From: Zygnema cylindricum
Taxonomy: Eukaryota; Streptophyta; Zygnematophyceae; Zygnematales; Zygnemataceae
Direction: 5' to 3'
Assembly: GCA_037447655.1 (NCBI GenBank)
Contig: JBBHKE010001378.1
Location: 724,038-767,053, forward strand
Length of the DNA: 43,016 nucleotides
Below, piece by piece: positions 3,373 to 42,244 of this stretch. Made by a program: the position numbers and the translations under genes. The stretch's first letter is position 1. The number at the start of each line of letters is the position of its first letter. The notes below the pieces were generated by a model. It searched no databases. It was not told the origin of the DNA and saw only the letters and a list, made by a program, of their open reading frames with translations.

Positions 3373-5095
3373 CATAGTTGTTCACGGCGATTAGTGCGAA
3401 CGTACCGTACGTGACGAATTATACGTAACAAACGCATTGAACCTTTTGATCAAATCATAGTTCAAAAGTAGGTGTCCGTACGCCCATACAATATGCCTAT
3501 TGTACGCAAAACATACAATATGCCCTTAAGACCCATATTGTATTGGCCGCAAAATGAAATAAAATAGGAACAGGGTTGAGTTGCACATCGATCGATAGAG
3601 AATTAAACGACATGTCTAAATTTTGAAAAAAAATCGGACAAAAAAAAATATTTCTGTGAGTTTTGAGGGACTTTTAATTTAAACCGTCAGATTTGGGCGA
3701 TCGGACGGTCGTTGATGAAAAGTAGGCGATTTAAGAAGATCACATGAAAAGCCCATAACACAACTTACGAAAGGACAATCTGTCATATTAGCGTCTGCAA
3801 TTTTGAGGGCCACACTAAATAAAGCCTCAAATTGACCAACCACGCAGTAAGGGACGATAAAAAACAAAAATTACCACACTGCCAAAATAATTACCAAAAC
3901 CTACGGACCAACCCCGTTGGCGTTCACACGGTCGAAACGCGGCTGTCAGACGAATATGTGTGAGCGGGATTTTTTATGACATTTTTTTTTTCCCTTTTTA
4001 GAACGCACATACTCATGCGTCCGCGGTTTCTAAAACTAATTCATTGTACTTTTTAACTTAAAAAGGTACATTTATGTACGGTCTGACACAGACCGTACAT
4101 CACTCTATTTAAGAGACAACATACTTTCATTTTTTAAGGTACTTGGAAATAGCCGTAATTAGAGTAATGAAAAATATAGAATAAACTACGCTATTTGAGA
4201 TTTTTTTAAGGTTTTTTTTTTCCCGGTTATTTTTCCCACGGAATGTCATCCTACGCAGTGTCAGTTCGCTAAAAATTTCCGTCCGGCGGCCTGCGCTGTA
4301 CTTTGATCTTACGTCAAATTCGGACGTTCGTACAGGAGTGTGCACGACGCACACACATACAGTATGCCTATGCTGCGCGAGTTTTGTGCAAAGTGTTGTG
4401 CGCCTACCAAAGGCCTACCATAAAAAAGCCTACTTTTGAACTATGGATCAAATTGCAAAAAATCGTTAATGAATTTCCTTCCGTACTATTCCGTACATAA
4501 AAAAACAAAAAACTATTACATATAACGCAGTTTGCAAGTTTTTCCCGTTAAAAATGAGCGGTAAGAAAATAAACTCTTTAAACTTTTATCACAACATGTA
4601 TTGAGAATGGAACGGCTTTACCAAATGGTAGTCCTGTCGTCCACCTAAAGGTATGCTATGGAGTGAACACACCCGGGTTCTAATGCTACCAAGATAACAT
4701 TTTTAGCAATTTCGTCTCTGTTCCATGGCGTCTTCTTTCAAAAAAAATTGAAGAAGACGCCCGTACAAATTTCAAACTGAATGCGCGAAATTATTGTGAC
4801 GTCCAACGTCTCTTTTCGAAAATGTCCGTACATTTTCGATTATATAACGTACAACTTCCGTGGTATTTCTGTTCAGTTCACTGAACAGAAAGTACCAATA
4901 AGTGCGACGTTTATTTCGCGTTTTATTCCGTACATATACGTAAAAAAATGTACAGTTACATTAATTAGTTTACAAGTTTCTGTAAAATTTCAGTTTCAGT
5001 TTACAGTACACGTTTTTATACGATTTTTTCAGAAGTCACGAATTATTCGTTTCAATCGCAAAAAAGGAAAAAATCGCGCGATTTGAACAACTATG
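3373..5095 (+). mobile_element. Z2: hAT-like miniature element, interrupted by X2
   Basis: It starts CATAGTTGTTCACGGCG and ends GATTTGAACAACTATG. The flanks CAAAAAAG and CAATAAAG match at 7 of 8 positions as target duplication. Subtracting X2 and its duplication leaves 725 bp, equal to Z1. It contains an A-box-like TGGTAGTCCTGTCG near 4626 and a B-box-like GGGTTCTAATGC near 4674, so the middle of the Z family may descend from a tRNA-like pol III promoter. No coding function is seen. Confidence 0.88.
3456..4445 (+). mobile_element. X2: hAT-like element (990 bp) nested in Z2
   Basis: Perfect 17-bp terminal inverted repeats, CATAGTTCAAAAGTAGG and its complement, are flanked by a perfect 8-bp duplication, GATCAAAT, at 3448-3455 and 4446-4453. 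The Z copy at 25060-25080 shows the corresponding uninterrupted site (GAACAAAT), which confirms the insertion. Its middle (about 3765-4245) is absent from X1, so X1 is probably a deletion derivative of the longer form. No transposase is seen. Confidence 0.92.
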
Positions 5096-20562: not shown

Positions 20563-21485
20563 ATTGCCGTATTCCTACGTCTATGTGTCAAAATTTAGTA
20601 TTTTATCGACGAACAAATAGGTTTAGATTACGAAACGCACAAAATAACGCTTCATTTGCCCAATTCGCAAAATGAAGTGAAAGAAGTCCACTAAAATAAT
20701 AGATATAGCCCATTATGCTGAAGTGGACTATTAAGGTTAGACGTGTATCGTTTTTAATAGTGCCGTGTCGTTCTTTTCGCTATATATCATTTTTAAATGG
20801 CAAAGAAGCCCTATGCGTCGCGTGTTGATCAATAAATTTCTATCTCCGATAAATTTGTGTAAATATAGTACACCGCAACTCGTAATTAGAGTAAGTAACG
20901 CTAATTCGGTCGCCCTAAATTTTGACTCTATCGCGCTAAATAAAATAAATGATTCTAAATTTTCATTATACTATTTAAGGCAAGGTCTAATTAGCATAAG
21001 AATTTATAATATAGGTTCGTTTTAAATAGTGTGGATTACGGACGACGTCCGACCGTGCAAAATTATACTTTTATAAGTAAAAAGTTACAAATAATGATTT
21101 AATACAAGTCGTTATCATATAAATGCGTTTAAACAAACCGCATAGTGCAAACGCCATAGTGACGATAAACTGTATGTTTTGTCAAGTTTTGTACGAACAC
21201 CTTATTTACAGTAGAGATATTAGCGCGCCAAATTAGAGTACTTAAATAAATTAGAGTAAAATTATTTTTTCAAAAAGTTTTATCACACAAATTAGAGTTC
21301 ATAACTCGAATTATTATTTTTACTTTTTTTACTCTAATTTTTTTTTTACTCTAATTACAATTCGCGGTGTAATAGTACTCTACATTACTTCTAAATATTG
21401 TTTGATTCATACACTATTACTAAATATTGTTTAGAATTACACTTTATATAGTGGGCACTATATATATTACATTAAGATACGGTGT
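20563..21485 (+). repeat. Diverged part of tandem duplication, copy 1
   Basis: Homologous to 25739-26143, starting GTCAAAATTTAGTATTTTAT. Excluding the inserted element at 20871-21369, the ~115 bases immediately before 21486 differ from copy 2 at about ten positions. The sequence is AT-rich and non-coding. Confidence 0.75.
20871..21369 (+). mobile_element. T: 499-bp TIR element with TA target duplication
   Basis: It begins CACCGCAACTCGTAATTAGAG and ends CTCTAATTACAATTCGCGGTG, flanked by TA on both sides (20869-20870 and 21370-21371). It is absent from the equivalent place in copy 2 (about 26030). The motif AATTAGAGTA or its complement recurs at least six times, mostly near the right end, like subterminal transposase-binding repeats. 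A TA duplication fits the Tc1/mariner group, but the ends do not match a family I know. Confidence 0.72.
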
Positions 21486-21669
21486 TGAAAGCATTAGTTA
21501 TGTCAGCTTAGAAAACCGCCCAATCAAAATGTAATAATAGCCTATAAATGTTGGACAACCGCTTCACACCCTCCGCCCATTGCAACACCAATTTTTTTTT
21601 CTACAATAATAAGTAAATTAAGTGATTATAAAAATGTGGTTAAAGAAAAAAAAAAGTTAAATAAAAAAA

Positions 21670-21906
21670 ATGGAGCAAACTTTTAAATCAAAACGATTTG
21701 AAAAGAACGCTATCCTATTGAAAGTTGACGATTGGACAAAGAGAATAAGAAAATTATTTCATAAAAGTATAAAAGATGACAAAAAGATAGATGAACTAAG
21801 TGATTATAGAGAGAGCATTAAAACAATTAACGTAAAGAAAAAGAAAAAAAAACTAAAAATAATGTTTTACTTAAAGTCGAAAAACTTTTTGTTGACTTTG
21901 TACTAA
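21670..21906 (+). CDS. Small hypothetical frame, Lys-rich (78 codons), copy 1
   Basis: ATG follows an A-rich stretch, and the product is Lys/Ile/Leu-rich with D-D-W-T-K-R-I-R-K-L-F near the start and a Lys run in the middle. Copy 2 (26328-26564) is identical. It may be a real small gene or, more likely, a chance frame in A-rich DNA; the identity reflects recent duplication and not selection. No family was recognised. Confidence 0.15.
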   Translation: MEQTFKSKRFEKNAILLKVDDWTKRIRKLFHKSIKDDKKIDELSDYRESIKTINVKKKKKKLKIMFYLKSKNFLLTLY

Positions 21907-23279
21907 TGTTGAAATACCTAAGGTGAGGTGGGTTACAGTTTTCGTATAATATAGAAGTTTTAAAAACTATTGAAATTTTATTGAAAGCGATTTCAAAAGA
22001 ACGGTGGTGTTATTTTAATAAGCGTTAAGGATTACATGGAGAAAATAAGCGAATTAGTTTAAAAAGTGTAAAAAATGAGTAAAAACTAAAGGAGTTAAAA
22101 GGATTATAGAAAAAGTTAAAAGAGTAAACTTGAATAAAAAAGTTTGCAAAAGTAAATTAAAGAAGTAAAGAAAAATAGTTAAAAAATCGTTTTTTTGTTT
22201 TTTTTAGATTTACGTGTTTGCTACTCTTATTTTTATTTGTGTTGTTTTCAGTTTTATGACGCTAATTTGTTAACTCATGAATGTATCAAGTCGTTGTTTT
22301 TTTCATTTCATTCATGTTTTGATTGATTATAGATTTATAGTTACAGTTTTTTAGTTTAAAGTATGTATATAAAACAAATAATATATCGGAAAGCATTTTT
22401 TTTTAAAGTAATAATAATGAAAAAAATAATTTATATTGAATAATTTTATATCAAATTAATAAAAAAATTGAAAAAAAAACAAAAATGATAATTTATATTT
22501 AATAGTATAACATCATTTTTTTCTTAAGTACGTTACAATATGGATTTTTACACATTTTGTTTTTAGGTATAAAAAAATATAAAAATTCAAAATTATAAGT
22601 TACGTCATACATGTATGAAATTAAGTCGATTATATACGTTGAAAAAGTTTTATTTATTTTTACTATTTTATTTTTGTAATTTTTACCAAAAGTAACAAAA
22701 ATTGGTTAACTGAGAAAAAAAATGAAAAGAAAATGATTAACTGAACAAAAACTGGTTAATTAATGAACAATGCATAAACAAAGTGATGGATAAAAAAATA
22801 AATAAAACACGTAAATATAAAGAAAATAAAAACAAAATGATAAACAAATAAATAAATGAAAACCCTTCAAAAAAAATAAAAAAATTAAAGTCGAAAAACA
22901 AAATTAAGGACGAAAATAAAATAATTGGATTGGAACAGAAAGAAAAATGATTAACTAAACACATATTGATAAACTCCATGCAAAGAGCCAAAAATATAAA
23001 AACACAAATTGATTGACAAATAAACGGATTAGTATTGAGTGGTAAAAAAAAAACACAAGGCGAAAAATATAGCGAATGAAAAACGGATCAGCAAGATCAA
23101 CAAACAAATTAATAGGCACAAAAACAAATTGGTGGACGACCGACCAACAAATTGTTAGACGGACAAGCAAAATGGTGGTAAAATCATCAGAAAAAATTAA
23201 AAGACTAACAAACAAATCTTTAGGTATAGATGCTAAGATCAATAGACGGGCAAACAAACATAAAAAATTAAACAAATAA

Positions 23280-23620
23280 AGAAACACGGTAGACACATAT
23301 AGACAAACACAATATACAAATAATAGACAAACAAACATAACAAATTAAACAAATAGACAAACACGACAGAAACAAGTAGACAAACAAGGCACAAACAATA
23401 GAGATACAAACATAAAAAAAAAGAAGACAAACACGATAGAAACAAGTGGACAAACAAGGCACAAACAATAGACATAGAAACGTAAAAAAAAAAAAAAAGT
23501 AGACAAACACGGTAGAAACAAGTAGACAAACTCGGTAAAAAAAATAAACCAACATAAATAGACAAACACGGTAGAAACAAGTAGACAAACACGGTACAAG
23601 CAATAGTCCAACAAGGTTTG
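23280..23620 (+). repeat. Minisatellite, ~22-base unit (AGACAAACACGGTAGAAACAAG)
   Basis: Units such as TAGACAAACACGGTAGAAACA and TAGACAAACAAGGCACAAACA alternate over about 340 bases, with A-runs between. The strand is nearly free of T between units. The opposite strand yields long hydrophobic phantom frames full of V-C-L-L-V, which should not be taken as membrane proteins. Confidence 0.85.
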
Positions 23621-24114
23621 ACATACAAAAGTTTTTTTTATGGAACAATAGCCTACAATCTCAGTTTTCTTTGATGCAACAATTCTTACACCTCGAGAAT
23701 ATAGATAAATGTCCCTTTAGATGCCCTACATGCATTACACACAATGGAGGACAAAGCTCAGCGCCAAAGTGAAATCGAATCAAATAAACTTCACGAAGAA
23801 ATTTCTTAATGTTAGTCACTTTGTAAAGGTTATTTAGAACTTATTTGAACTTTCAGATTTACCTTGCTTATGGTTTAACGTTTTAGGATAGTGATGCACA
23901 TCATACCCTATATAATAAGGTAGTTTGCTTGTAGAAAGTTGAAACTCATGGGTGCAATCTATACAAATCTTTGAGGATTGTATAAAAATCGGCCTATGTG
24001 GAACCATTTAAAAAAATGCACGTATGTGCGATCATGTTTACGCGCATGCGATCTAACCTTGAGTATAGAAAATACCACTTTAATCATTAACACAACTACT
24101 TACAACTAGTGGTG

Positions 24115-25738: not shown

Positions 25739-26143
25739 TTTATGTGTCAAATTTTAGTATTTTATAGACGAACAAATAGGTTTAGATTACGAAACGCACA
25801 AAATAACACTTCATTTGCGCAATTCGCCAGTTAAAATGAAAGAAGTCCATTAAAATTATAGATATATCCCACTATCTGAAGTGGACTCTTAAATTATACG
25901 TGTTTTGTTTTTAGCAGTGCCGTGTAGTTTTTTTCCGCGATATATCGGTTATCAAATGGGAAGGAAGCCCTATGCGTCGCGTGTTGAATAATAAATTTCT
26001 ATCTCCGATAAATCTGTATACATATAATAGTAGTACTATACATTGCTACTAAATGTTGTTTAATTCATACACTATTACTAAATATTGTTTATAATTACAC
26101 TTTATATAGTGTGCACTATGTATATTACATTAAGATACGGTGC
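25739..26143 (+). repeat. Diverged part of tandem duplication, copy 2
   Basis: Counterpart of 20563-21485 without the T element. Both contain GACGAACAAATAGGTTTAGA and CTATGCGTCGCGTGTTGA strings. It differs from copy 1 by roughly 8% in the last 115 bases. Confidence 0.75.
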
Positions 26144-28903
26144 TGAAAGCATTAGTTATGTCAGCTTAGAAAACCGCCCAATCAAAATGTAATAATAGCC
26201 TATAAATGTTGGACAACCGCTTCACACCCTCCGCCCATTGCAACACCAATTTTTTTTTCTACAATAATAAGTAAATTAAGTGATTATAAAAATGTGGTTA
26301 AAGAAAAAAAAAAGTTAAATAAAAAAAATGGAGCAAACTTTTAAATCAAAACGATTTGAAAAGAACGCTATCCTATTGAAAGTTGACGATTGGACAAAGA
26401 GAATAAGAAAATTATTTCATAAAAGTATAAAAGATGACAAAAAGATAGATGAACTAAGTGATTATAGAGAGAGCATTAAAACAATTAACGTAAAGAAAAA
26501 GAAAAAAAAACTAAAAATAATGTTTTACTTAAAGTCGAAAAACTTTTTGTTGACTTTGTACTAATGTTGAAATACCTAAGGTGAGGTGGGTTACAGTTTT
26601 CGTATAATATAGAAGTTTTAAAAACTATTGAAATTTTATTGAAAGCGATTTCAAAAGAACGGTGGTGTTATTTTAATAAGCGTTAAGGATTACATGGAGA
26701 AAATAAGCGAATTAGTTTAAAAAGTGTAAAAAATGAGTAAAAACTAAAGGAGTTAAAAGGATTATAGAAAAAGTTAAAAGAGTAAACTTGAATAAAAAAG
26801 TTTGCAAAAGTAAATTAAAGAAGTAAAGAAAAATAGTTAAAAAATCGTTTTTTGTTTTTTTTAGATTTACGTGTTTGCTACTCTTATTTTTATTTGTGTT
26901 GTTTTCAGTTTTATGACGCTAATTTGTTAACTCATGAATGTATCAAGTCGTTGTTTTTTTCATTTCATTCATGTTTTGATTGATTATAGATTTATAGTTA
27001 CAGTTTTTTAGTTTAAAGTATGTATATAAAACAAATAATATATCGGAAAGCATTTTTTTTTAAAGTAATAATAATGAAAAAAATAATTTATATTGAATAA
27101 TTTTATATCAAATTAATAAAAAAATTGAAAAAAAAACAAAAATGATAATTTATATTTAATAGTATAACATCATTTTTTTCTTAAGTACGTTACAATATGG
27201 ATTTTTACACATTTTGTTTTTAGGTATAAAAAAATATAAAAATTCAAAATTATAAGTTACGTCATACATGTATGAAATTAAGTCGATTATATACGTTGAA
27301 AAAGTTTTATTTATTTTTACTATTTTATTTTTGTAATTTTTACCAAAAGTAACAAAAATTGGTTAACTGAGAAAAAAAATGAAAAGAAAATGATTAACTG
27401 AACAAAAACTTGTTAATTAATGAACAATGCATAAACAAAGTGATGGATAAAAAAATAAATAAAACACGTAAATATAAAGAAAATAAAAACAAAATGATAA
27501 ACAAATAAATAAATGAAAACCCTTCAAAAAAAATAAAAAAATTAAAGTCGAAAAACAAAATTAAGGACGAAAATAAAATAATTGGATTGGAACAGAAAGA
27601 AAAATGATTAACTAAACACATATTGATAAACTCCATGCAAAGAGCCAAAAATATAAAAACACAAATTGATTGACAAATAAACGGATTAGTATTGAGTGGT
27701 AAAAAAAAAACACAAGGCGAAAAATATAGCGAATGAAAAACGGATCAGCAAGATCAACAAACAAATTAATAGGCACAAAAACAAATTGGTGGACGACCGA
27801 CCAACAAATTGTTAGACGGACAAGCAAAATGGTGGTAAAATCATCAGAAAAAATTAAAAGACTAACAAACAAATCTTTAGGTATAGATGCTAAGATCAAT
27901 AGACGGGCAAACAAACATAAAAAATTAAACAAATAAAGAAACACGGTAGACACATATAGACAAACACAATATACAAATAATAGACAAACAAACATAACAA
28001 ATTAAACAAATAGACAAACACGACAGAAACAAGTAGACAAACAAGGCACAAACAATAGAGATACAAACATAAAAAAAAAGAAGACAAACACGATAGAAAC
28101 AAGTGGACAAACAAGGCACAAACAATAGACATAGAAACGTAAAAAAAAAAAAAAGTAGACAAACACGGTAGAAACAAGTAGACAAACTCGGTAAAAAAAA
28201 TAAACCAACATAAATAGACAAACACGGTAGAAACAAGTAGACAAACACGGTACAAGCAATAGTCCAACAAGGTTTGACATACAAAAGTTTTTTTTATGGA
28301 ACAATAGCCTACAATCTCAGTTTTCTTTGATGCAACAATTCTTACACCTCGAGAATATAGATAAATGTCCCTTTAGATGCCCTACATGCATTACACACAA
28401 TGGAGGACAAAGCTCAGCGCCAAAGTGAAATCGAATCAAATAAACTTCACGAAGAAATTTCTTAATGTTAGTCACTTTGTAAAGGTTATTTAGAACTTAT
28501 TTGAACTTTCAGATTTACCTTGCTTATGGTTTAACGTTTTAGGATAGTGATGCACATCATACCCTATATAATAAGGTAGTTTGCTTGTAGAAAGTTGAAA
28601 CTCATGGGTGCAATCTATACAAATCTTTGAGGATTGTATAAAAATCGGCCTATGTGGAACCATTTAAAAAAATGCACGTATGTGCGATCATGTTTACGCG
28701 CATGCGATCTAACCTTGAGTATAGAAAATACCACTTTAATCATTAACACAACTACTTACAACTAGTGGTGGAGGGACGTCCATCTTTCGTCCCTCAAAGA
28801 TGTTAAACTTTGTTTTTTAAACATTTGTTTGTTTTTCAAATTTCACCTTTGTACAAAGATGGTTTTACAAACAAACATTGTTTTTATCGTCGATAAATGT
28901 AAA
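26144..28903 (+). repeat. Near-identical duplicated block, copy 2
   Basis: 2760 bases matching 21486-24247 with three differences seen. It contains the same small frame (26328-26564), minisatellite (about 27940-28270) and hairpin. After ATGTAAA at 28903 the copies part abruptly. Confidence 0.9.
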
Positions 28904-31877: not shown

Positions 31878-33180
31878 TTAGTCCTTCCTATAGCGTTAAA
31901 GGCAGCCATGGCTCCATAGCTCTCTCTCTCTCTCTTTCAGTGACTACAACAAGTATGGGGGCTAGAGAGAGAGAAGAGATAGAGGCAGGCTGCCTACATT
32001 TTCTTTTCTAATAAATTTAGACCTAGAAAATATACTAAAACTTACTTATTTCAACAACTCCCCTCTCCAAGCACTCACACTTGTTGTAGTCACTGAAGGC
32101 TGGATAGGGAGCTACAGCCATGGCTGCCTAGGCTCTCTAGAGAAGACAGAGGTTACATTAGGTAGACTTACCAAAAGTTAGTTGACGGACCCAAGAATTG
32201 ATCCTCGTACCTGCCATCCGTCAATCCGCATTAGCCGTTAGCTCTAGCCGTTAAGTCTAGGACAGATATTACGATATATAGGGTTTGATAAATATATAAA
32301 TCGTTATATGTATATTAATCCGTTTAACGGCTAGTAGATACTTAGTACATAGATACAGTTTGATTTAGGACGAAGTACGGTATGGGGACAGAACGGATAC
32401 CGCGCATTTGTTTCGATAGCGAAAAAAATACCGCGCGTCGAATTTCAGCGGCTAGGATTATAGCCTGTTTTGATCGGACGGCCACGATAGGCGCCGCGAT
32501 CACGGAAAAGGCATTTTTGGCGTTTTACAGTATTTGCCACGTCAGATGACACGTGGCGTGATAACCATAGACTATGGGAATTCCACAGATTACAGGAACT
32601 AATCCTGATTTGACACGTGTCGACATTTTGGCCATGTCATACAATGGTCGTACATAAAGTACACCGGCACCTTTACTTTTCTGTACGACACAGTAATTTG
32701 ATTGGTGCCGTACTTCAGTAGATAGAGTTTTAGAGAGGGAATAGGACTTAGAAAATTTTGGGTAGGCAACTGCCTCTCCCAAGGAGCACCCTGTATAAAT
32801 GGCAAACTTTGGCCAACCATAACTATCAATTTACTTGACCATTTTCAGTGATTCTTTTTGCTGCGGACTCACAGGAGTCCACGCTAAACAGGGGTGTAGT
32901 TGGTTAGAGTTTTTTGTTTGCCAGGGTGGCTGCATTTCTAAGGGAAAGTCAAAGTGGGTGAATGTGTCCAAATCTCATATTCTAACTTTGCTTTATGTGG
33001 TGGAACTGAGCACACAGAAAGTGTTATTTCACACGGGTGAATCTATATTGGGATTGTGACTGTCAAGGGGTCAGTCACTTGGGTTTATATTAACTTGGAG
33101 TCGGCACTATCTAGAGTAGCTTCTTTTGGATTTGCATACTCTGTGGGCCAATAGAGGTCTCAAAGTTTCAGGTTACTGGC

Positions 33181-34245
33181 CCACTATCTAGGGTGCCAAT
33201 GTTCGATGGAACAGATTTCACCTATTGGGAGTTTACAATGGCGGGATTGCTTTTTGAGAAACACTTATGGGGAATTGTTTCGGGACAAGTAAGATGTCCG
33301 CCACCTGGCTTTGGAGGAGCTTACTATGGAGATTCATCTGAGGCTGCCCAGAATATCAACCGGAGCTCAGATGCAACGGAAGGTGAAGGGAAAAATCTTT
33401 CCGTGGATAGGGAAATAGGGGAGAAGGAAAAAGGGACACCTATGGTGAGGGGAGCTAGGCTCTCAGCTATGGTACCACATGTAGGGATTAAAACTGAAGA
33501 AAATGACACAAAAATATGGGAATACAAAAACACTATAGCAAAACATCTCATACTTAGATATGTGTCTAAGTCGATAGCTATCACTCTTTTAAGTCTAACC
33601 AAAGCTTCAAAAAAATAGGAAGCACTAATTCAGATTTATAAGAGTTAGACTATTCAGAGGCAGCAATTAGTAAAACAGAACATAGATGCCTACGTTTATA
33701 AAGGCGGTAGCATGATAGAGTTTTGCAATGATATTGCTACGTTATACGTTGAGCTTACTAGTGCGGGATATGTAGAATCTGAGGAGAGTAAGATTAATAC
33801 ACTACTTATGAAACTCCCAGATGAGTACGAAAACATCATTTGTCGTATGCTGGCAATGGATGGCTCCTCATGGACTTGGAGCTTTACCATAGGGATAATT
33901 ATTGTGAGGGAAAGCACTTTGGAGCTTCGTAGGGGAAAAGACAAGGTAAATGCATTTTCACCTGGTGGTGATTCGCGGAACCGTGATGAGAGGAACGGCG
34001 GTGACGAGCGGAAGCGTGATGAGAGAAAGAAAGACAAAGGTAAACCTTATCGGAACTTTGGTGGAAAGAGAGGGAGAGGAAAAGAAAGGGGAACTTTGAA
34101 AAAGGGGCCTTGCTTCTTTTGTAGGGAACCGGGTCATTATATGGAGGAATGCCCTTGTTTGGAAAAACTTAGAAGTTAGAATGTGGATGAGGAGGAAGAA
34201 GGGGAAGAGGAGAAAGAGGATGAAGATTTTTTTATAGCTTCTCCG
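33181..34245 (+). pseudogene. Copia-type Gag, decayed
   Basis: One frame runs from about 33181 to 34245 with only TAG interruptions inside it (33616, 33646 and 34177). It starts F-D-G-T-D-F-T-Y-W-E-F-T-M-A-G-L-L, the N-terminal capsid region of Ty1/copia Gag. It continues with M-K-L-P-D-E-Y-E-N-I-I, then an Arg/Lys/Asp-rich stretch, and carries a zinc knuckle, C-F-F-C-R-E-P-G-H-Y-M-E-E-C (CX2CX4HX4C). After the third TAG an acidic tail follows. It would make the particle shell and package RNA if intact; as read it cannot give full-length protein without suppression. Confidence 0.85.
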
Positions 34246-34440
34246 ATTTAGTAGTATGGGGAAGAAAGAAAAACACACAGTAATTGCACGAAGGCAACAG
34301 TGTGCTTTTGGAGGTATAAGGGAAGTAAAGAGAGAGGAGGTACTTTATGATGTCGAGGAGTGTAGAGTGTATGACTTAGAAATGAGAAAGTCAGTTCTAG
34401 GATCCATAAGTGAAAACGAAAAGATAAAATAAATTAGGAT

Positions 34441-34938
34441 AATTATATAGTTAATAGGAAACCAAAAAATTGGTCGAAAAAGGAGACTTCAACGGATTCT
34501 GTGGAAAGGGGAGAAGTGAAACTCGAAGAGGTTTTAAAGGATAGGGGAGAAGAGAAATATTTGATTAAAGGTTTAGGGGAGAAGAAATATTTATTGGGAA
34601 TTAAATTTGAAAGTAATAGTGGAAAGAATTCCATGGGAGAGAGTGAGGGAAGTTCAGAAAATGGGGTAATAATCATGGATAAAAATATGAGTACGAAAGA
34701 TGTAGATCTTATGAGGAACTTAGTGGGGACTAGTATTTTTTGGGAATATTTGGGGGTGGATGGATTTGACATCACTACTTGGTGTGATGTCACTTGTGAA
34801 GATGTGCTTGTAAAAGGGTTAGCATCTGGGTGTATGTTGCAGATTGGAAATGGGGTTAGCATCTGGGTGTATGTTGCAGATTGGACATGGGGCTGGCTGT
34901 TTGGATCGCAAGAGGAAAATCAGTTTGTGTGTGGATGA
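34441..34938 (+). pseudogene. Open stretch after gag, unidentified
   Basis: In the gag frame the sequence is open for about 165 codons, Glu/Lys/Gly-rich first and Trp/Asp-rich later. There is no protease, integrase, reverse transcriptase or RNase H motif. Near its end a 36-base tandem duplication (GGTTAGCATCTGGGTGTATG units at about 34818 and 34854) repeats a dozen residues. Possibly captured host sequence. Confidence 0.4.
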
Positions 34939-35149
34939 AAGAGTGATGAAGTGGATAAAATCTTTGCCCGAATTTTTGAAAAATGGGATGTTAAATAAAA
35001 TGAGTGATGCAGTTATCATTTCAGTTCATTTAATACATTGTGTTAAAGACTTAAGTTTTATGAATGGAAAAAGAAAAAAGAAAAAGAAAAGGAAAAATGG
35101 GATGGGGTGTTTGTTTACTTGTTTGCGATAGTTGAAAGAAAAATAGACT

Positions 35150-35164
35150 AGAAAATAAGGGGAG
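35150..35164 (+). promoter_or_regulatory. Polypurine tract
   Basis: AGAAAATAAGGGGAG lies immediately before the TGTTGATATTTG that begins the 3' LTR. This is the expected site of plus-strand DNA priming. Confidence 0.75.
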
Positions 35165-36344
35165 TGTTGATATTTGAGTTTTTTCTAGGTCTGTATTAGG
35201 ATAGAAAAAGAGTTGAGGCGCTCTGCCTCTAACTCCCCTCTCCAAGCCCTCACACTTGTTGTAGTCACTGAAGGCTGGATAGGGAGCTAGATTCATGGCT
35301 GCCTAGGCTCTCTAGAGAAGACAAGGGGTAAATTAGGTAGACTAAGCAAAAGTTAGTTGACGGACCCAAGAATTGATCTTGGTATTTGCCGTTCGTCAAT
35401 CCGCATTAGCCGTTAGCTCTAGCCGTTAAGTCTAGGACAGATATTACGATATATAGGGTTTGATAAATATATAAATCGTTATATGTAGATTAATCCGTTT
35501 AACGGCTAATAGATACTTAGTACATAGATACAGTTTGGTTTAGTACAAAGTACGGTATGGGGACAGAACGGATACCGCGCATTTGTTTCGATAGCGAAAC
35601 AAATACCGCGCGTCGATTTTTAGCGGCTAAGATTATAGCCGGTTTTGATCGGACGGCCACGATAGGCGCCGCGATCACGGAAAAGGCATTTTTGGCGTTT
35701 TACGGTATTTGCCACGTCAGATGACACGTGGCGTGATAACATTGGATTACAGGAATTCCGGAGATTACAGGAACTAATCCTGATTTGACACGTGTCGACA
35801 TTTTGGCCATGTCGTACAATGGCCGTACATAAAGTACACCGACACCTGTACTTTTCTGTACGACAAAGTAATTTGATTGGTGCCGTACTTCAGTAGATAG
35901 AGTATTAGAAAAGGAATAGGACTTAGAAAATTTTGGGTAGGCAGCTGCATCTCCCAGAGAGCACCCTGTATAAATGGCAAACTTTGGCCAGCCATAACTA
36001 TCAATTTACGTGACCATTTTCAGTGATTCTTTTTGCTGCGGACTTAGGGGATCTAGGCTACACAAGGGTGTAGTCGGTTAGAGTTTTTTGTTTGCCAAGG
36101 TGGCTGCATTTCTAAGGGAAAGTCAAAGTTGGTGAATGTGTCCAAATCTCATATTCTAACTTTGTATTCTGTGGTGGAACTGAGCACACAGAAAGTGTTA
36201 TTTCACAAGGGTGAATCTATATTGGGATTGTGACTGTCAAGGGGTCAGTCACTTGGGTTTATATAAACTTGGAGTCGGCACTATCTAGAGTAGCTTCTTT
36301 TGGATCTGCATATTCTGAGGGCCAATGGAGGTCTCAAAGTTTCA
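35165..36344 (+). repeat. 3' LTR of copia-like element
   Basis: TGTTGATATTTGAG to CAAAGTTTCA, 1180 bases. Differences from the 5' LTR are scattered substitutions and short indels, so the insertion is not recent. TATAAAT at 35969-35975 is the presumed promoter. Antisense tRNA-like strings lie at about 35355-35440. Confidence 0.9.
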
Positions 36345-36349
36345 CTGCT

Positions 36350-36777
36350 CAGTTTAGAAAATACAAGAATCTCGTTTGGATGAGTGCAATTCTTCCTCCG
36401 TACCGAATGACCGTACAGGGGAAAAAGGGCCTGAAAATCCTTGGCGATATAAAGGCTTGCCTGTAAAGCACATAAACTTGACAGCTGTCGAGCGTGCCTG
36501 AGTAACATAAAAGAAATCCACACAGCCTGGAGTAGTCGACCCTCGATTCCTGCAAATAACCTCCAAGTGGGAATGCTTCCTATAATAATGATCATGCCCA
36601 CTGCTGCCTAAACCCTTCCCGTAGATATGAATGCAAGATAGGAGAGATACTTGGGTAGGGAATAGTGATGAGGGAATGGGAAGGCGAAAATAATCCACTC
36701 CCCTTTCTTTTCCCCACCTGACCGGGGAAAGGGTTTGGGGTCTCGGTAGTTGGGTGATATCCTAATTTCCCCCCCTC
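36350..36777 (-). mobile_element. Proximal part of gypsy 3' LTR
   Basis: On the minus strand a polypurine run, GAGGGGGGGAAA, follows the end of the integrase/PHD frame, then sequence shared with 29590-29945. The distal part was separated when the copia-like element inserted at 36344/36345. The exact first base of the LTR is uncertain. Confidence 0.55.
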
Positions 36778-36819
36778 TTATTCAACCGTGACTAGGACAT
36801 AAAATTACGTGCCCCATTC

Positions 36820-37194
36820 ACAGTTTCCACAAAGAGCGGGGCTTCAAGAGGATGGGAGACAAGCTGAATGCCAACAGTGACAGCACTGATTGCAAAACAA
36901 AATTTTGTGCAGCTCGGAGGACTGATTGCAAGCCGATGAACAAGAAGGAGGATCAGCAAAGTTAGTTGAGTGGAAAGTGGGTTTGTCCTCCAATCCGCGA
37001 AGATAGCAAGGGGCCACATTGATATGATTCTCTTTAATTCCTCGACCATATTTTCCCTCCAATGTAAGAACCCTTTTGTTGAAAACTTCGACCACTCTCA
37101 AAATTACTCGCCCGACAGAAATATCCACCGTGTTCTTCTTCTGTTGCATCCGGTATACAATGTCACCCAACGTAAATCGTCGCTTCCGTGGCAC
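36820..37194 (-). pseudogene. Integrase C-terminal part with PHD-like zinc finger
   Basis: F-T-L-G-D-I-V-Y-R-M begins the usual GPY/F-side region. About 60 residues later (36820-36942) stands C-x3-C-x11-C-x2-C-x4-H-x2-C-x10-C-x2-C, with I-L-F-C-N-Q-C-C-H-C-W-H-S-A-C-L as core. That core, with Trp before His, is characteristic of PHD fingers, which bind histone H3 tails. A TGA (36844-36846) separates the final C-G-N-C. Chromoviruses carry a chromodomain at this place for chromatin targeting. The first pair is CX3C and not CX2C, and the last loop is short, so RING or other zinc-finger readings remain possible. Confidence 0.6.
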
Positions 37195-37419
37195 ATAAAT
37201 CTTGCTCCGACGCGGAGAATACCACAGCTAATCTCGTTGTTGAGCCGCATGCAAATTCCCTATGGGAAGAGGCATCTTTCGATGGAATGTCTTGGCTCTG
37301 TTAGCGATCAATTTTTCAACTGTTCCCTTGTCATCTATCTTCGGGAGGACCACCGCTTGGGCTGATGCAGGCGCGGGCAAGATGGGATGCCGTCCAAATA
37401 GAATGAAGTAAGGACTATA

Positions 37420-38159
37420 GGAGTGGAGAGATGCCTACGTGCTCAATTTGTAACCCATTTCAATCCAAGGCACCCTTCTGTCCCACTCCCCCACATATTA
37501 TTCAATTCCATTTTTTTTGTAGTGACCGCTTTACTGTCTGTACGCACCTTTCGCCCAAACCGTCGGCTTGCGCGTGGTCACGGTTGGTCAGCCGATGGTC
37601 AACAAGGCATTTTTCCAAGAGGTTGGAAAATTCTTCAGCAAATTGAAGCCTTGGTCGGTTAGAAATTCTGCATGCGCCCCGAATTGAGTTAAAACCCTTT
37701 GAAAAAAAACATCTACAATTACTTTGGACTCCTTACGGGGTCTAACTACAAACTCGATCCACTTGGAAAAATGTTCGATCATGACTAGCACGAAGCGGTT
37801 CCCCCGCCTGCTAGTAGAAAGAGGTCCCAAAAGATCCAAAGACCACCGATAAACTATCCCCGAATAGGAAGCGAATGAAGCTCAGTCTCGCCCTTTTTGT
37901 CAAAAGCCGCCTTGACTCGATCGCATGAGGAGCAAGTCTGCACAATTCGGTTGACTTGGGTCTGCAACCCGTGCCACCAATAAGAGCTCGTAATTTGGGA
38001 AGTGGTCCGCTTTTGCCCGAAGTGTCCACATTGCTGATGGAGATTGGAAATCAGAGTTTCTCGGTATGAGGGGGGAGGAACCACTTTCGTCGTGCGATAC
38101 GCAGCCATCCGGGTTTGCACTCGAGATAATTCAATTCCAGTCAAGTGGGGAAGAGGCAA
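37420..38159 (-). pseudogene. Gypsy integrase: zinc-binding and catalytic core
   Basis: The N-terminal H2C2 module reads H-Q-Q-C-G-H-F-G, then C-S-S-C-D (37854-38159). A second frame gives M-D-L-L-G-P-L and H-F-S-K-W-I-E, then L-T-D-Q-G (37588-37839), the first two Asp of the DDE triad. After another frameshift near 37640 come R-D-H-A-Q-A-D-G-L-G-E-R, which supplies the Glu. All catalytic residues survive but lie in different frames. Confidence 0.87.
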
Positions 38160-38341
38160 CCCCTAATGGATAGATTAGAGGGCATCGCAGTCGTTCCATA
38201 ATCTTTACGTCCGGGCCTTATGGGCTCTTGCCCCTCTACGTTGGCCGAGAAAGTTGATAGTTCCCACCCAGATTGGGGAAGCTAGATGAAGGCGGACGAT
38301 CCTCGAATGAGTCCAAGACTGATTTCCGGGTCCTCATCATG

Positions 38342-38797
38342 CTAAGCCCCTGTAGAATCCATGTTGGAGGGATCGAGATTCCGCCTAAATCTGTCGGCAT
38401 TCCCATGGATTTCCCCTACCCTATGAACAATGTCTAAATCATATTCTTGCAGGATAAGAACCCATCTAGCGAGTTTGTCGGTTAACTTACTATTTTCTAT
38501 GATGTATTTCAGGGGTTGGTGATCAGTAATCAGGGTGATATGGACCCCGTACAAATAAGATCGGAAATGCTGGATTGCCCAAACCGCTACGAGTAGCTCT
38601 CCGTGGTAACTGCTATAATTCACCTCTACTCTGTTATTGCTCTGGCTGGCGTAAGCCACCATATATTCAACTTTGGCATCATCGACTTGAGCCAAAACCG
38701 CTCCCGATTTAAACATGCTCGAGTTAGTGTAAAAGAGGCAAGGCCTCTCGTGATCAAGCATACCGAGCACAGGTTGCTGCTTTAGAGCATCCTTCAA
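38342..38797 (-). pseudogene. Gypsy RNase H
   Basis: The segment reads L-F-Y-T-N-S-S-M-F-K-S-G-A-V-L-A-Q, then H-G-E-L-L-V-A-V-W-A-I, then L-I-T-D-H-Q-P-L-K-Y-I. The first catalytic Asp (normally T-D-A-S) is Asn, a single G-to-A change, so this copy would lack nuclease activity. Glu and the later Asp are present. It is otherwise uninterrupted. Confidence 0.88.
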
Positions 38798-38869
38798 AAA
38801 CTGGAAGGTGATATGTTTCTCTTCGGCCCACTACAATTTTTTGTCCTTCCGTAATAGCTGATTGAGGGC

Positions 38870-39710
38870 TGAGCATGATTACTAAACTCACGGATAAATT
38901 GCCGATAGTGGTTCGCAAGACCCAGAAAGGTGCGAAGGGCCGAGATGTCTTGCGGTGGGGGAAGGGCGTCAAGGGCTGCCACCTTCACCATATCGGGACC
39001 CATAGTCACGGGAGTCACCTCATGTACGAGGTAAATGATTTTCTGTACCCCAAAAATACCTTTGTCTGGGTGACATTTCAAGCCCGCTGCTTGGAGTGCC
39101 TGAAGAACGATCTGGATATGCTTCGGCGTTCCTCAAAGGTCTTTGAGAATATGATTACATCATCAATATAGTACCGGGCACAATCGATTCCTCGGAGTGC
39201 TTTATCCATCGCCTGTTAAAATTTGGTCGGTGCGTTCTTCAGCCCGAAGGGCATGTAAATCCATTCATACAGCCAGAAACCTCCCCAAATTGTCGTTCTC
39301 TCCCGGTGCTTTGGTTCCATGGCAATCTGGTGGAACCCATTTTTCATGTCCAAAGTGAAGTAGATAGTGGCACCAGCAAGGGAGTCGAATATCTCTCCCT
39401 GAGGTCGGTATCGGATACTGGTCAAAAATTGTGGTAGTGTTCAACATGCGATAATCTCCACACATCTGGAAATCTACAGTTTTCTCGGACGAGTCATTCG
39501 TGGGAGGGAAAACTCTCAGGGAAGCGAACCCGTGGAGTCCTGTACTTTCTTGAACCATCTGGCTTCCACCAAATTTTGGACTTTAGCGTGATGAATTCCT
39601 TCTCCTTGAAGTAGAGAGGATACTGTTTCTGCCAAACAGTAGCCGTCTCGTCGATCAAATTGATTCGGAAAGGGGTTCTTTTGTAGATGGCGACATCTGT
39701 TTCTCACCAT
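38870..39710 (-). pseudogene. Gypsy reverse transcriptase
   Basis: Visible motifs in order are C-G-D-Y-R-M-L-N, then T-L-D-M-K-N-G-F-H-Q-I, then Y-M-P-F-G-L-K-N-A-P-T-K-F, then the catalytic R-Y-Y-I-D-D-V-I-I-F-S at about 39145-39180 and, after a frameshift, C-H-P-D-K-G. Thumb/connection sequence F-L-G-L-A-N-H-Y-R-Q-F follows. A TAA (39216-39218) stands where the family has Gln after A-P-x-x-F. Both catalytic Asp of Y-I-D-D are kept. Confidence 0.88.
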
Positions 39711-39719
39711 GAGAACACC

Positions 39720-41366
39720 TGCTTATTATTGGCCAAGAGTTCGGAGAGCTGCGCCTTATGCTGAGGGTCCAACTGCTCCCCCAACGTCAAATCCATTTTC
39801 CCAGGCTCAACAGCAGCCCAAGCTTCGGGCTATCTACTCCAGAGGTTAATGTCGAATTCCATCCCTACTGGTGGATGTACCTCTGCCCATCCGGCTAGGA
39901 CTCTGCTGCTGACAACTTCCGTTAAGCTGATGCCTTTTGAGTCGTCGCCCCCCTCTCACAGGGAAAACCTACGGTGGTGAAATGTGAATTTTTGTTCTTC
40001 TCATTTCTCTCCCCCCCTCAAGCTGCAAAGTTGCCTGCATTGCTATAAACTCAGGACTTGGGGTAACAGCCTGATTCGGGATTTGAGATGGAAAGGCGAG
40101 ACATGCTTGAGTACCCATGATCAATTTAACCATTTTCAATTAGGTGGACCAGTAGTCCAAATACCTGCGCGTTGTTGTGCCTTTTTGAAATCCCATTGCT
40201 TCTTCCCGTTTTGTGATTGTCGGTGTTCTCCAGATTCCCGCCTTGCTGTCAAAAATAATCCTTGCTGCCCCTTTTCGATATGCGTGACCGTGAGGGAAAG
40301 AGACCAAAATCGGGAGTGCTTTCCGTGGTAATCCCGGTTTGATGCACCGAAAGAAGGGCGAGCGGTTAAGTTTCGTCACAGTCGTGGCCACTTCTTTTCT
40401 TAAGTATCTACTGCACTGAATTTTTCGGGTCGGGTGTTTTTATATCCAAAAGTTGTTGGAGAGCTGGAAGCGGGATCATATTGGTTCAATATGCTCTAAC
40501 TATGTGCGCTTTTGATCCCATTTGGGCGGCGTTAAAAACCAATGGAGCTCCTGACATCCGTGCTACCTGATTCCAGTTGTCCGCAACCTGTTTCTGTTTA
40601 TTATCTCTTTGGTGTACATTTTCCAGAATGTAACCCACCAATGTGTCTTTGAGTTGTTGAAGCCACGAGATTAATTTCATCATCTGATAAAATGTTCCAC
40701 TTCTGCGGTCTTGATGCCCTTTTCTTTTCCTGCTAGGGAGTATCCTGACAAGGCTAGCCTGCCAACACCAAATCCACTTTTCCCAAACTGGCTAGATGGG
40801 GCGCCATGATGTTTTCTACATTTTGGGGAAGACTCCGGTGAGCTTTGGAAATGGCAGACACTAGAAGTTGACGAGGATTTAGGTGGTGAAGTTGGTGTAG
40901 GCGGTGCTCGGTGAGAACCCGTGCTCTGGGGATATCTCCTCGACTGCATATGACTCCACTAGGTATCTTGTTTTCAAAACCGCTTCCAAATCGGAACTAA
41001 TTCTCGAAAAAAGAGAAAAAATCCGGAGTCATGAATTGGGGACTACCAATGTCACCACTTGTCGATCAAATTCCACGTTACCAGACCTGGTTTTGGAAGC
41101 ATCAGACAAGGTGTAGAAACAGCTTCCCTTAATGATAAAGCCGAGAAAGTCTGATCTACTCCCCGCCAAAGTTTCGCCACCTGTACTAATCTATTCTTGT
41201 ATTCCTCTTCCCACCGCTTGGAAATTGGGAATTGCTGTATTTCTTCGGCTATATCTGTGGAACTTCCAAACAATTCCGTCGAAGAGGATGTAGTATACAC
41301 CTGGTAGCAGCTAGACACCGGGACATTTATCTTCCCCCGGTTCCATAAATCCAAAGGAGCCATCAC
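39720..41366 (-). pseudogene. Long segment between protease and reverse transcriptase
   Basis: Open pieces at 41052-41366, 40680-40949, 40486-40683 and 40140-40391 have protein-like composition. One reads D-K-W-like N-terminal text, another L-V-G-Y-I-L-E-N-V-H-Q-R-D-N. Near 39720-39830 the sequence P-Q-H-K-A-Q-L-S-E-L-L and Q-V-F-S-W is the usual lead-in to gypsy reverse transcriptase. At about 1.6 kb this spacer is much longer than usual. No family was recognised. Confidence 0.4.
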
Positions 41367-41518: not shown

Positions 41519-41821
41519 CTAGCCCACGTCATTTGAGAATTCGACTTCCATGGCTTTGATGATGCCATAGACAGGTTGACTGCCGCTGTTTATCGTGCTT
41601 AGGCAGATGTTGCTCGGGCAAATATCTGGTCGGAGTTTTTCGGGCATTTTCTGTAAGGTAGAGGTGGTGATGAGGTTGGGGAGCGCTCCGGTGTCGAATA
41701 CCCTGTCATGGTATCCCCCATACCCATTGAGTTTAAAGATTTCAATTCGGTTCAGTATAATAGCCACTGAAAAGGCTTTGTAGTCCCTATCCACCATAGG
41801 GGTTTTTGGATTTGAGGACAA
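41519..41821 (-). pseudogene. Gypsy aspartic protease segment
   Basis: Contains V-F-D-T-G-A-L-P-N-L-I-T-T-S-T-L, the D-T-G active-site loop of retropepsins followed by the usual helix. It would cleave the polyprotein as a dimer. Sequence just downstream in other frames (41400-41520) continues the family's typical C-terminal part. Confidence 0.75.
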
Positions 41822-42244
41822 AAAAACTGCGGTTGGCGGAGTTGCCTTGTTGACTCTCTATTTTCCAGAGTGGATCTCTTCTCCCAATGATTGAATGAGG
41901 ATTTCTTTGGGCAAGTTGTGGGGGGATGCTAGAGTTTTGACATGGGTGAGGGCGTATGGCATTAAGTAAAGGACTAACATGACAGTAGGCTTAGAGAAAA
42001 GAAGGGGAGCTTTCGGTGAAGATGTTGGGGAATCTGGGTCGTGCGGATCCTGATCCCTTGTGTTGAAAAGAGGTAATTAATAGTTCGCTTCTATAGTTTA
42101 GTTAGAATACAAAGAGAGAGAAAGAGAGAACCAAAGGCACGCCATGGCTGCCGCGTCATTTAAGAGGGAGAATAAAATAAAAGGTATTATACTATTTGTA
42201 GCAAAATACTGCCACTAGCAGGATTTGAACCGAGGTCTACGCAA
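41822..42244 (-). other. Leader / residual gag region of gypsy element
   Basis: Between the protease frame and the LTR at 42245 there is room for at most 140 codons. There is no capsid or zinc-knuckle motif. So gag is missing, either deleted or separated by insertion of the LTR on the right. On the minus strand GGTTCAAATCCTGC (about 42219-42232) is a perfect pol III B-box / T-arm string, near where a primer-binding site would lie. Confidence 0.4.

Follow-up and report, generated by a model that had tools for sequence, protein, structure and literature searches.

A Ty3/gypsy retrotransposon in the genome of Zygnema cylindricum carries a PHD finger at the end of its integrase. The copy that we describe lies in a 43,016-nucleotide stretch of contig JBBHKE010001378.1, positions 724,038 to 767,053 (hereafter the window). 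Together with its sister copies in the same genome and its relatives in other hosts, this copy leads us to conclude that the integrase, after its SH3/Tudor-like C-terminal domain, continues into a genuine PHD finger, and that the element belongs to a distinct Ty3/gypsy clade that is widespread in the green lineage.

The finger is encoded on the minus strand of the window, in frame after the integrase C-terminal domain, and all eight Cys4-His-Cys3 (C4HC3) ligands are present. The minus-strand read of 36942..36820 is CSSACNQSSELHKILFCNQCCHCWHSACLPSS*SPALCGNC. The relevant features are:

36943..37227, minus strand: integrase C-terminal (SH3/Tudor-like) domain, from the open stretch, homology to the integrase C-terminus of sister copy L013 and the fold of relative P0015
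36820..36942, minus strand: PHD finger (C4HC3), decayed, from the ligand read and from Pfam PF00628 in sister copies
36940-42, 36928-30, 36892-94 and 36883-85, minus strand: Cys codons of ligands 1 to 4
36868-70 (His), 36859-61, 36829-31 and 36820-22 (Cys), minus strand: codons of ligands 5 to 8

An earlier note on this DNA, made from the letters alone, had claimed a C4HC3 pattern with core FCNQCCHCWHSACL, in frame with the integrase C-terminal part and followed by a polypurine run. The core matches exactly, a 127-aa open stretch (37227..36847, minus strand) joins the integrase C-terminal domain to the first six ligands, and the purine run AAGAGGGGGGGAAA stands at 36766-36779 on the minus strand. 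The note overlooked that the pattern reads on the minus strand and that the copy is decayed, and it saw neither the breadth of the clade across chlorophytes and streptophytes nor a methyltransferase-like domain in the same element. The decay shows in a TGA at 36844-46 that separates ligand 6 from ligand 7, in a loop ahead of ligand 7 that is shorter than in sister copies, and in stops and frameshifts that interrupt Pol upstream of the finger. Window pieces score 13.2-15.6 bits against PF00628 (cutoff 24), the best of them being the window piece alone at 15.6 bits, E 0.016; with X at the stop, PHDvar_NSD, another PHD family, ranked first. A search for protein relatives of the decayed 127-aa piece gave five candidates, none at E 1. 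Chance occurrence of the pattern is ruled out, since a relaxed seven-ligand PHD pattern has one match in the six-frame translation of the window and none in 100 first-order-Markov random sequences.

Sister copies establish the identity of the module. The assembly (352.8 Mb, 2689 contigs) holds relatives at no fewer than 41 places in a DNA search, in which 40 of 432 candidates were scored, and at no fewer than 150 places in a protein search, with 72-100% identity and 150 of 1498 candidates scored. The uninterrupted sister copy L010 matches PF00628 at 29.2 bits (E 9.3e-7, profile positions 3-47 of 47), above the cutoff of 24. Five other copies score below it, at 17.4-23.0 bits, so that one of the six scanned passes, and PF00628 is the top Pfam match in all six. 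A zinc knuckle or RING identity was rejected on this ranking; the RING family PF14446 came second or third, with a lower score, in 4/6. The earlier note's placing of a PHD finger on a gypsy integrase holds, across many copies and across species. One integrase-PHD match, at G000:C961:69667-70125, falls inside an open frame that runs to 5743 residues, against ~1520 in the longest of the other open copies.

The finger is also under constraint. Among 50 own-genome copies, each a distinct locus with one element, single ligands are kept in 41-50, with ligand 4 in 50 and ligand 6 in 48. The genome holds three or more subfamilies, which share the ligands and differ in their loops. We estimated the ratio of nonsynonymous to synonymous change (dN/dS) over 28 codons, from ligand 1 to ligand 6, in 26 stretches (25 non-duplicate frames and the window). 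Over all pairs it is 0.20 with the ligand codons included. Because the stretches had been chosen by their ligands, these codons were then dropped, and the all-pairs value becomes 0.30; within subfamilies it is 0.44 (the window's), 0.36 and 0.35, and between subfamilies synonymous sites are saturated. For the 60 residues before the finger, dN/dS is 0.04 in 7 copies from the other two subfamilies, none of them from the window's. The finger is therefore constrained, but more loosely than the domain that precedes it.

Two protein database searches extend the arrangement to other hosts. With the uninterrupted L034 integrase-to-PHD piece as query, 125 proteins were found and 120 listed, 89 of which carry PF00628; with a distant member, P0063, 345 were found and 120 listed, 118 of which carry it. 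Hosts with the annotation include Klebsormidium nitens and Sphagnum magellanicum, together with Chromochloris, Chlamydomonas reinhardtii, Volvox, Pleodorina, Tetrabaena and Haematococcus. Proteins from Riccia, Calypogeia and Tetraselmis also fall in the clade, with ends that are cut or different. Six relatives (P0052, P0063, P0076, P0082, P0085 and P0097) score 37.9-44.5 bits against PF00628. All eight ligand positions are present in 189 of 209 relatives (P0103-P0120 set aside), the last ligand being His in four of these. More than 100 residues follow the finger in 150/189, 21-100 in 9/189 and at most 20 in 30/189. “Integrase end” hence refers to the end of the integrase module, which is not always that of the polyprotein. 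Viral contigs gave one pattern match, and none was confirmed. Five clade members (P0055, P0170, P0193, P0198 and P0216) have an additional G-patch domain (PF01585, precomputed Pfam).

Trees of the integrase core, in which long outside branches were flagged and no root was inferred, support a single finger-bearing group. In a quick tree of 110 of the 120 proteins with six of our own copies, the finger-bearing rows form one group of 100 (SH-aLRT 100) and the 16 rows outside it have no finger. A FastTree of 221 rows, with Sphagnum proteins P0102, P0121 and P0122 left out, separates 205 rows from the same 16 with local support of 99; Klebsormidium, Chromochloris, Chlamydomonas, Volvox, Pleodorina, Tetrabaena and Haematococcus are all on the 205-row side. 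Twelve rows inside the clade of the first tree lack the finger pattern, nearly all through truncation or gene model. P0080, P0093, P0094, P0096 and P0100 stop short of the finger's place, and P0043 stops within the C-terminal domain. P0086, P0090 and P0095, all gene models from Tetraselmis, end differently, and P0088 and P0099 from the same host hold the core; P0021 and P0033 lack the pattern on this set yet are annotated with PF00628. P0020 stops right past the C-terminal domain and may genuinely lack a finger. The altered finger of P0001 does not match the pattern, but the protein was placed among the finger-bearing rows.

The same Pol carries a second such part, a C5 DNA-methyltransferase-like domain with similarity to METHYLTRANSFERASE, in the window's family and in many relatives. 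In sister copy L016 it matches PF00145 (E 1.3e-7; L016:5076-5699, minus strand) between a weak protease match and the reverse transcriptase (RT), and its frame reads PCQ and ENV. The L016 domain has matches in 11 of 20 fetched 8-kb loci, L016 included, and in the window, where it is decayed, at 40930-40396. Precomputed annotation places PF00145 in 7/120 and 22/120 listed relatives from the L034-piece and P0063 searches, respectively. In P0001 it stands before RT; many relatives, P0063 and P0076 among them, have it between RNase H and integrase; and in P0052, P0082, P0085 and P0097, whose sequences have no RT, it comes ahead of the integrase zinc domain.

When proteins were compared with P0001 and P0063 and a score of at least 20 was required, 122 of 227 showed the methyltransferase-like domain (DNMT). 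The commonest orders, with IN for integrase, are RT-DNMT-IN-PHD (73) and DNMT-IN-PHD (43); RT-DNMT-IN and DNMT-IN occur twice each, and DNMT-RT-IN and DNMT-RT-IN-PHD once each. Among proteins without the domain, 31 read RT-IN-PHD and 45 are fragments with IN-PHD only. On the 221-row tree, where 172 rows could be labelled, the position of the domain changed at least five times. The motif IV Cys-Gln was found in 83/122, EN[VL] in 29/122 and RxHRx[RK] in 27/122; the stretches examined may have been delimited only in part. The Cys-Gln follows Pro in 26 relatives; in 53/122 the residue before it is Glu, not the usual Pro.

What might the finger read? Searched against PDB sequences, one copy's finger gave 27 matches at E 0.1, which we take to be PHD proteins; the best plant match was ATXR5. 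At the head of the matches in both sequence and fold stand the fingers of ATXR5, UHRF1, BAZ2A and KDM5, which are of the type that binds unmodified H3, and the PHD fold is found in the predicted structure of relative P0015. Families missing from the fold matches were not counted as excluded. In fold and in the ligand spacing of the wider clade, our fingers resemble those of ATXR5, KDM5 PHD1, BAZ2A, UHRF1 and BHC80, all of which are host proteins and none of which has the Trp of the H3K4me3 cage. We assume that this Trp would stand two residues before the ligand His; at that position it is absent in 189/189 fingers. A cage Trp is described as needed for H3K4me3 reading (PMC3214078). An Asp follows ligand 3 in 177/189 fingers of the wider clade.

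We think it reasonably likely that the PHD finger is a reader of the histone H3 tail, probably of its form unmethylated at K4, that tethers the integrase, with a possible coupling to methylation. The finger would bind the N-terminal tail of H3, most probably with K4 unmethylated, and this binding would bring the pre-integration complex to nucleosomes without H3K4 methylation, a role like the one proposed for chromodomains, which would direct chromoviruses to methylated H3K9. Fusions of PHD fingers and chromodomains to the integrase-binding domain of LEDGF redirect HIV-1 integration and provide proof of principle for tethering (PMC8149907). Since the window's family and many relatives have a methyltransferase-like domain in the same polyprotein, insertion of a new copy could go together with its de novo methylation, in the way that the H3K4me0-reading ADD finger is coupled to DNMT3. 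A fuller proposal, which is tentative and on balance doubtful, is that this chlorophyte, charophyte and bryophyte gypsy clade has a read-write kit, in which a K4me0-reading PHD finger and a de novo C5 methyltransferase would together give landing at H3K4-unmethylated sites and self-methylated inserts, a retrotransposon counterpart of DNMT3-ADD that would enter silently.

The earlier note had leaned toward the opposite specificity: it recorded that PHD fingers often read H3K4 methylation and suggested that the lineage may choose insertion sites with such a reader. In that case the finger would read H3K4me2/3 and steer insertion to active promoters. PHD fingers do include H3K4me3 readers, two of which, as we presume, are PHF8 (E 0.045) and CXXC1 (E 0.066), weak matches among the 27. 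An ING2 PHD tether shifts HIV-1 integration toward transcription start sites (PMC8149907), and the UHRF1 PHD has measurable H3K4me3 binding (PMC3214078). However, the missing cage Trp and the lead of fingers of the unmodified-H3 type among the matches both speak against this specificity, and ING, BPTF and TAF3 are absent among the matches listed (60 of 120 PDB matches). AIRE-PHD1 likewise has no cage and meets K4me0 through negatively charged residues (PMC3471955). We consider H3K4me2/3 reading very improbable; of the earlier note's overall interpretation, the PHD finger on a gypsy integrase stands and the H3K4-methylation flavour does not.

Besides the matches to PHF8 and CXXC1, several observations weigh against the favoured explanation, some of them particular to the window's own family. 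Conservation of all eight ligands, which the earlier note had proposed as a check on intact copies, is found in 189 of 209 relatives but in only 23/50 own-genome copies, although some of the losses may be alignment gaps because the subfamilies differ in loop length. The first knuckle of the window's family is C-x3-C, in contrast to C-x2-C in 89/89 relatives and to the host fingers named above; the Asp after ligand 3 is replaced by Asn or His in two of three own-genome subfamilies; and the nearest relative, P0001, has a finger altered still more, with no PHD match at E 1e-5. To these we add the looser constraint on the finger than on the domain before it. The structure model is of a relative, not of the window copy, with pLDDT 77 and pTM 0.56, and the top Foldseek rows are the Tudor-PHD proteins PHF1 and MTF2 at a root-mean-square deviation of 13-14. 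As for coupling to methylation, the incomplete motif finds in many relatives suggest that the enzyme is not active in all of them, and a polyprotein that is cut need not hold methyltransferase and integrase together.

Some of these observations would fit a finger that is losing its function in the window's family, with reading lost there and kept in other clade members. The altered knuckle, the missing Asp in two subfamilies, the loss of at least one ligand in 27/50 copies and the dN/dS of 0.44 within the window's subfamily, ligand codons excluded, all point this way. Nonetheless, dN/dS is below 1 in every subfamily despite the upward push from decaying copies, and the near-complete retention of ligands 4 and 6 speaks against loss; we regard this explanation as improbable. 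Alternatively, the divergent first knuckle could reflect a structural or protein-protein zinc module that makes contact with a multimer partner, the methyltransferase or a host factor and reads no histone. PHD fingers without H3 binding are reported to exist (PMC9640981). The canonical finger of the wider clade, its frequent Asp after ligand 3 and its closeness to H3-tail readers make such a purely structural role unlikely, though more of a contender than loss of function.

Reader-type domains on integrases are not new. In chromoviruses, a histone-reader-type domain is likewise appended to the integrase C-terminus; there it is a chromodomain, whereas here the PHD finger takes that place. The chromodomain profile PF00385 had no match at E 1 in nine C-terminal pieces (three overlapping window pieces and L010, L013, L014, L016, L022 and L028), and the one listed protein with a Pfam chromodomain, P0117 from Rhodotorula, lies outside the PHD clade. 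Ginger1 elements have a gypsy-type integrase with extra C-terminal domains, and Ginger1-9_HM has Ulp1 and PHD; in contrast to our element they are animal DNA transposons, and among the table rows examined one family has PHD (PMC2836005). The ORF1 proteins of CR1/L2 LINEs also contain PHD fingers, for which a targeting role was proposed by the authors, but these are elements without long terminal repeats (LTRs) or integrase, and the finger lies either in ORF1 or close to where ORF2 begins (PMC4120745).

The closest precedent is KnitGypsy-Dnmt3 of the streptophyte alga Klebsormidium nitens, which also has a gypsy Pol with a Dnmt3-related methyltransferase; its authors treat the enzyme as acquired in the K. 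nitens lineage (de Mendoza 2018, PMC5890265). By contrast, the methyltransferase-like domain described here occurs in members across the clade and at two Pol positions, which suggests that the association with gypsy elements is older and wider than that acquisition, and that the finger is the more constant of the two parts. One member of the PHD clade, P0002, is itself from K. nitens; it is a 568-residue fragment without the methyltransferase part. PHD has no occurrence in the main text of the KnitGypsy-Dnmt3 paper, figures being outside the scope (PMC5890265), or in the text consulted of PMC6317226. In the literature searched, with subscription papers, preprints and Repbase reports outside its scope, no description of a gypsy integrase with a PHD finger was seen, in agreement with the earlier note, which knew of no well-described plant lineage of this kind. 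The parts are of known kinds; what the literature searched did not describe is the way they are joined, with a gypsy integrase that ends in a PHD finger throughout a clade of the green lineage and is often linked to a methyltransferase-like domain. Because this arrangement is already visible in the automatic Pfam annotation of public proteins, it is undescribed in that literature, not unseen.

The remaining parts of the window element follow the Ty3/gypsy domain order of RT, RNase H and integrase:

36347..36765, minus strand: element-specific 3' region, probably the start of the 3' LTR, since sister-copy homology runs to 36347
36766..36779, minus strand: purine run AAGAGGGGGGGAAA, probable polypurine tract, directly after the finger frame
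37318..37881, minus strand: integrase DDE core, broken by stops (rve PF00665 and tblastn 37860-37318)
37854..38162, minus strand: integrase H2C2 zinc domain (PF17921, E 3.4e-17)
38342..38830, minus strand: RNase H domain (PF17917, E 3.4e-30)
38983..39513, minus strand: RT, frameshifted (tblastn with the L016 RT)
40396..40930, minus strand: remains of the C5 DNA methyltransferase, upstream of RT (tblastn with the L016 domain, E 7e-52, two pieces)
41519..41857, minus strand: probable aspartic protease region (likeness to L016 5985-6686, which has a PF13650 match below cutoff)

The rve match, on 37591-37881, has E 6.4e-6 and is under its cutoff; a Pfam scan of the window piece at 41519..41857 gave no match. 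The last Cys pair was located at five places in sister copies (14 sources examined). The purine run after it is identical in 3/5 (L010 twice, L017) and nearly so in 1/5 (L034), and in L023 (1/5) it is not at the expected place.

The 3' region is truncated at 36346 by a neighbouring LTR element. This neighbour, at 32056-36344, has a copia-type gag (PF14223, E 1.8e-6), a zinc knuckle and LTRs ~94-95% alike; two frames scanned contain no pol, and the insertion into the gypsy 3' end is probably that of a copia relative that is not autonomous. The segment 42245-43016 was rejected as an LTR of the gypsy element, being ~72% alike to the LTRs of this neighbour; with 107-876 it forms an inverted LTR pair at the window ends, 91-93% alike. 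A 628-nt inverted repeat (1568-2195 and 4446-5073, 98% complementary, 2250 nt between), with pieces 75-78% alike near 20.4 kb and 25.6 kb, is perhaps a terminal-inverted-repeat or foldback element. Finally, about 21370-23784 and 26028-28440 are a direct duplication at ~4657-base spacing, with compared pieces 91-100% alike.

What is the wider significance of a PHD finger at the end of a gypsy integrase? The usual textbook case of histone marks being read by a retrotransposon is the integrase with a chromodomain. If the proposed reading is true, a second, unrelated reader would occupy the same place, and histone-guided integration would have evolved more than once. The clade includes Chlamydomonas reinhardtii, so that reader specificity could be set directly against insertion site in a laboratory alga. 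The linkage to a DNA methyltransferase raises the further question of whether such an element, once it arrives, can itself lay down the mark that silences it.
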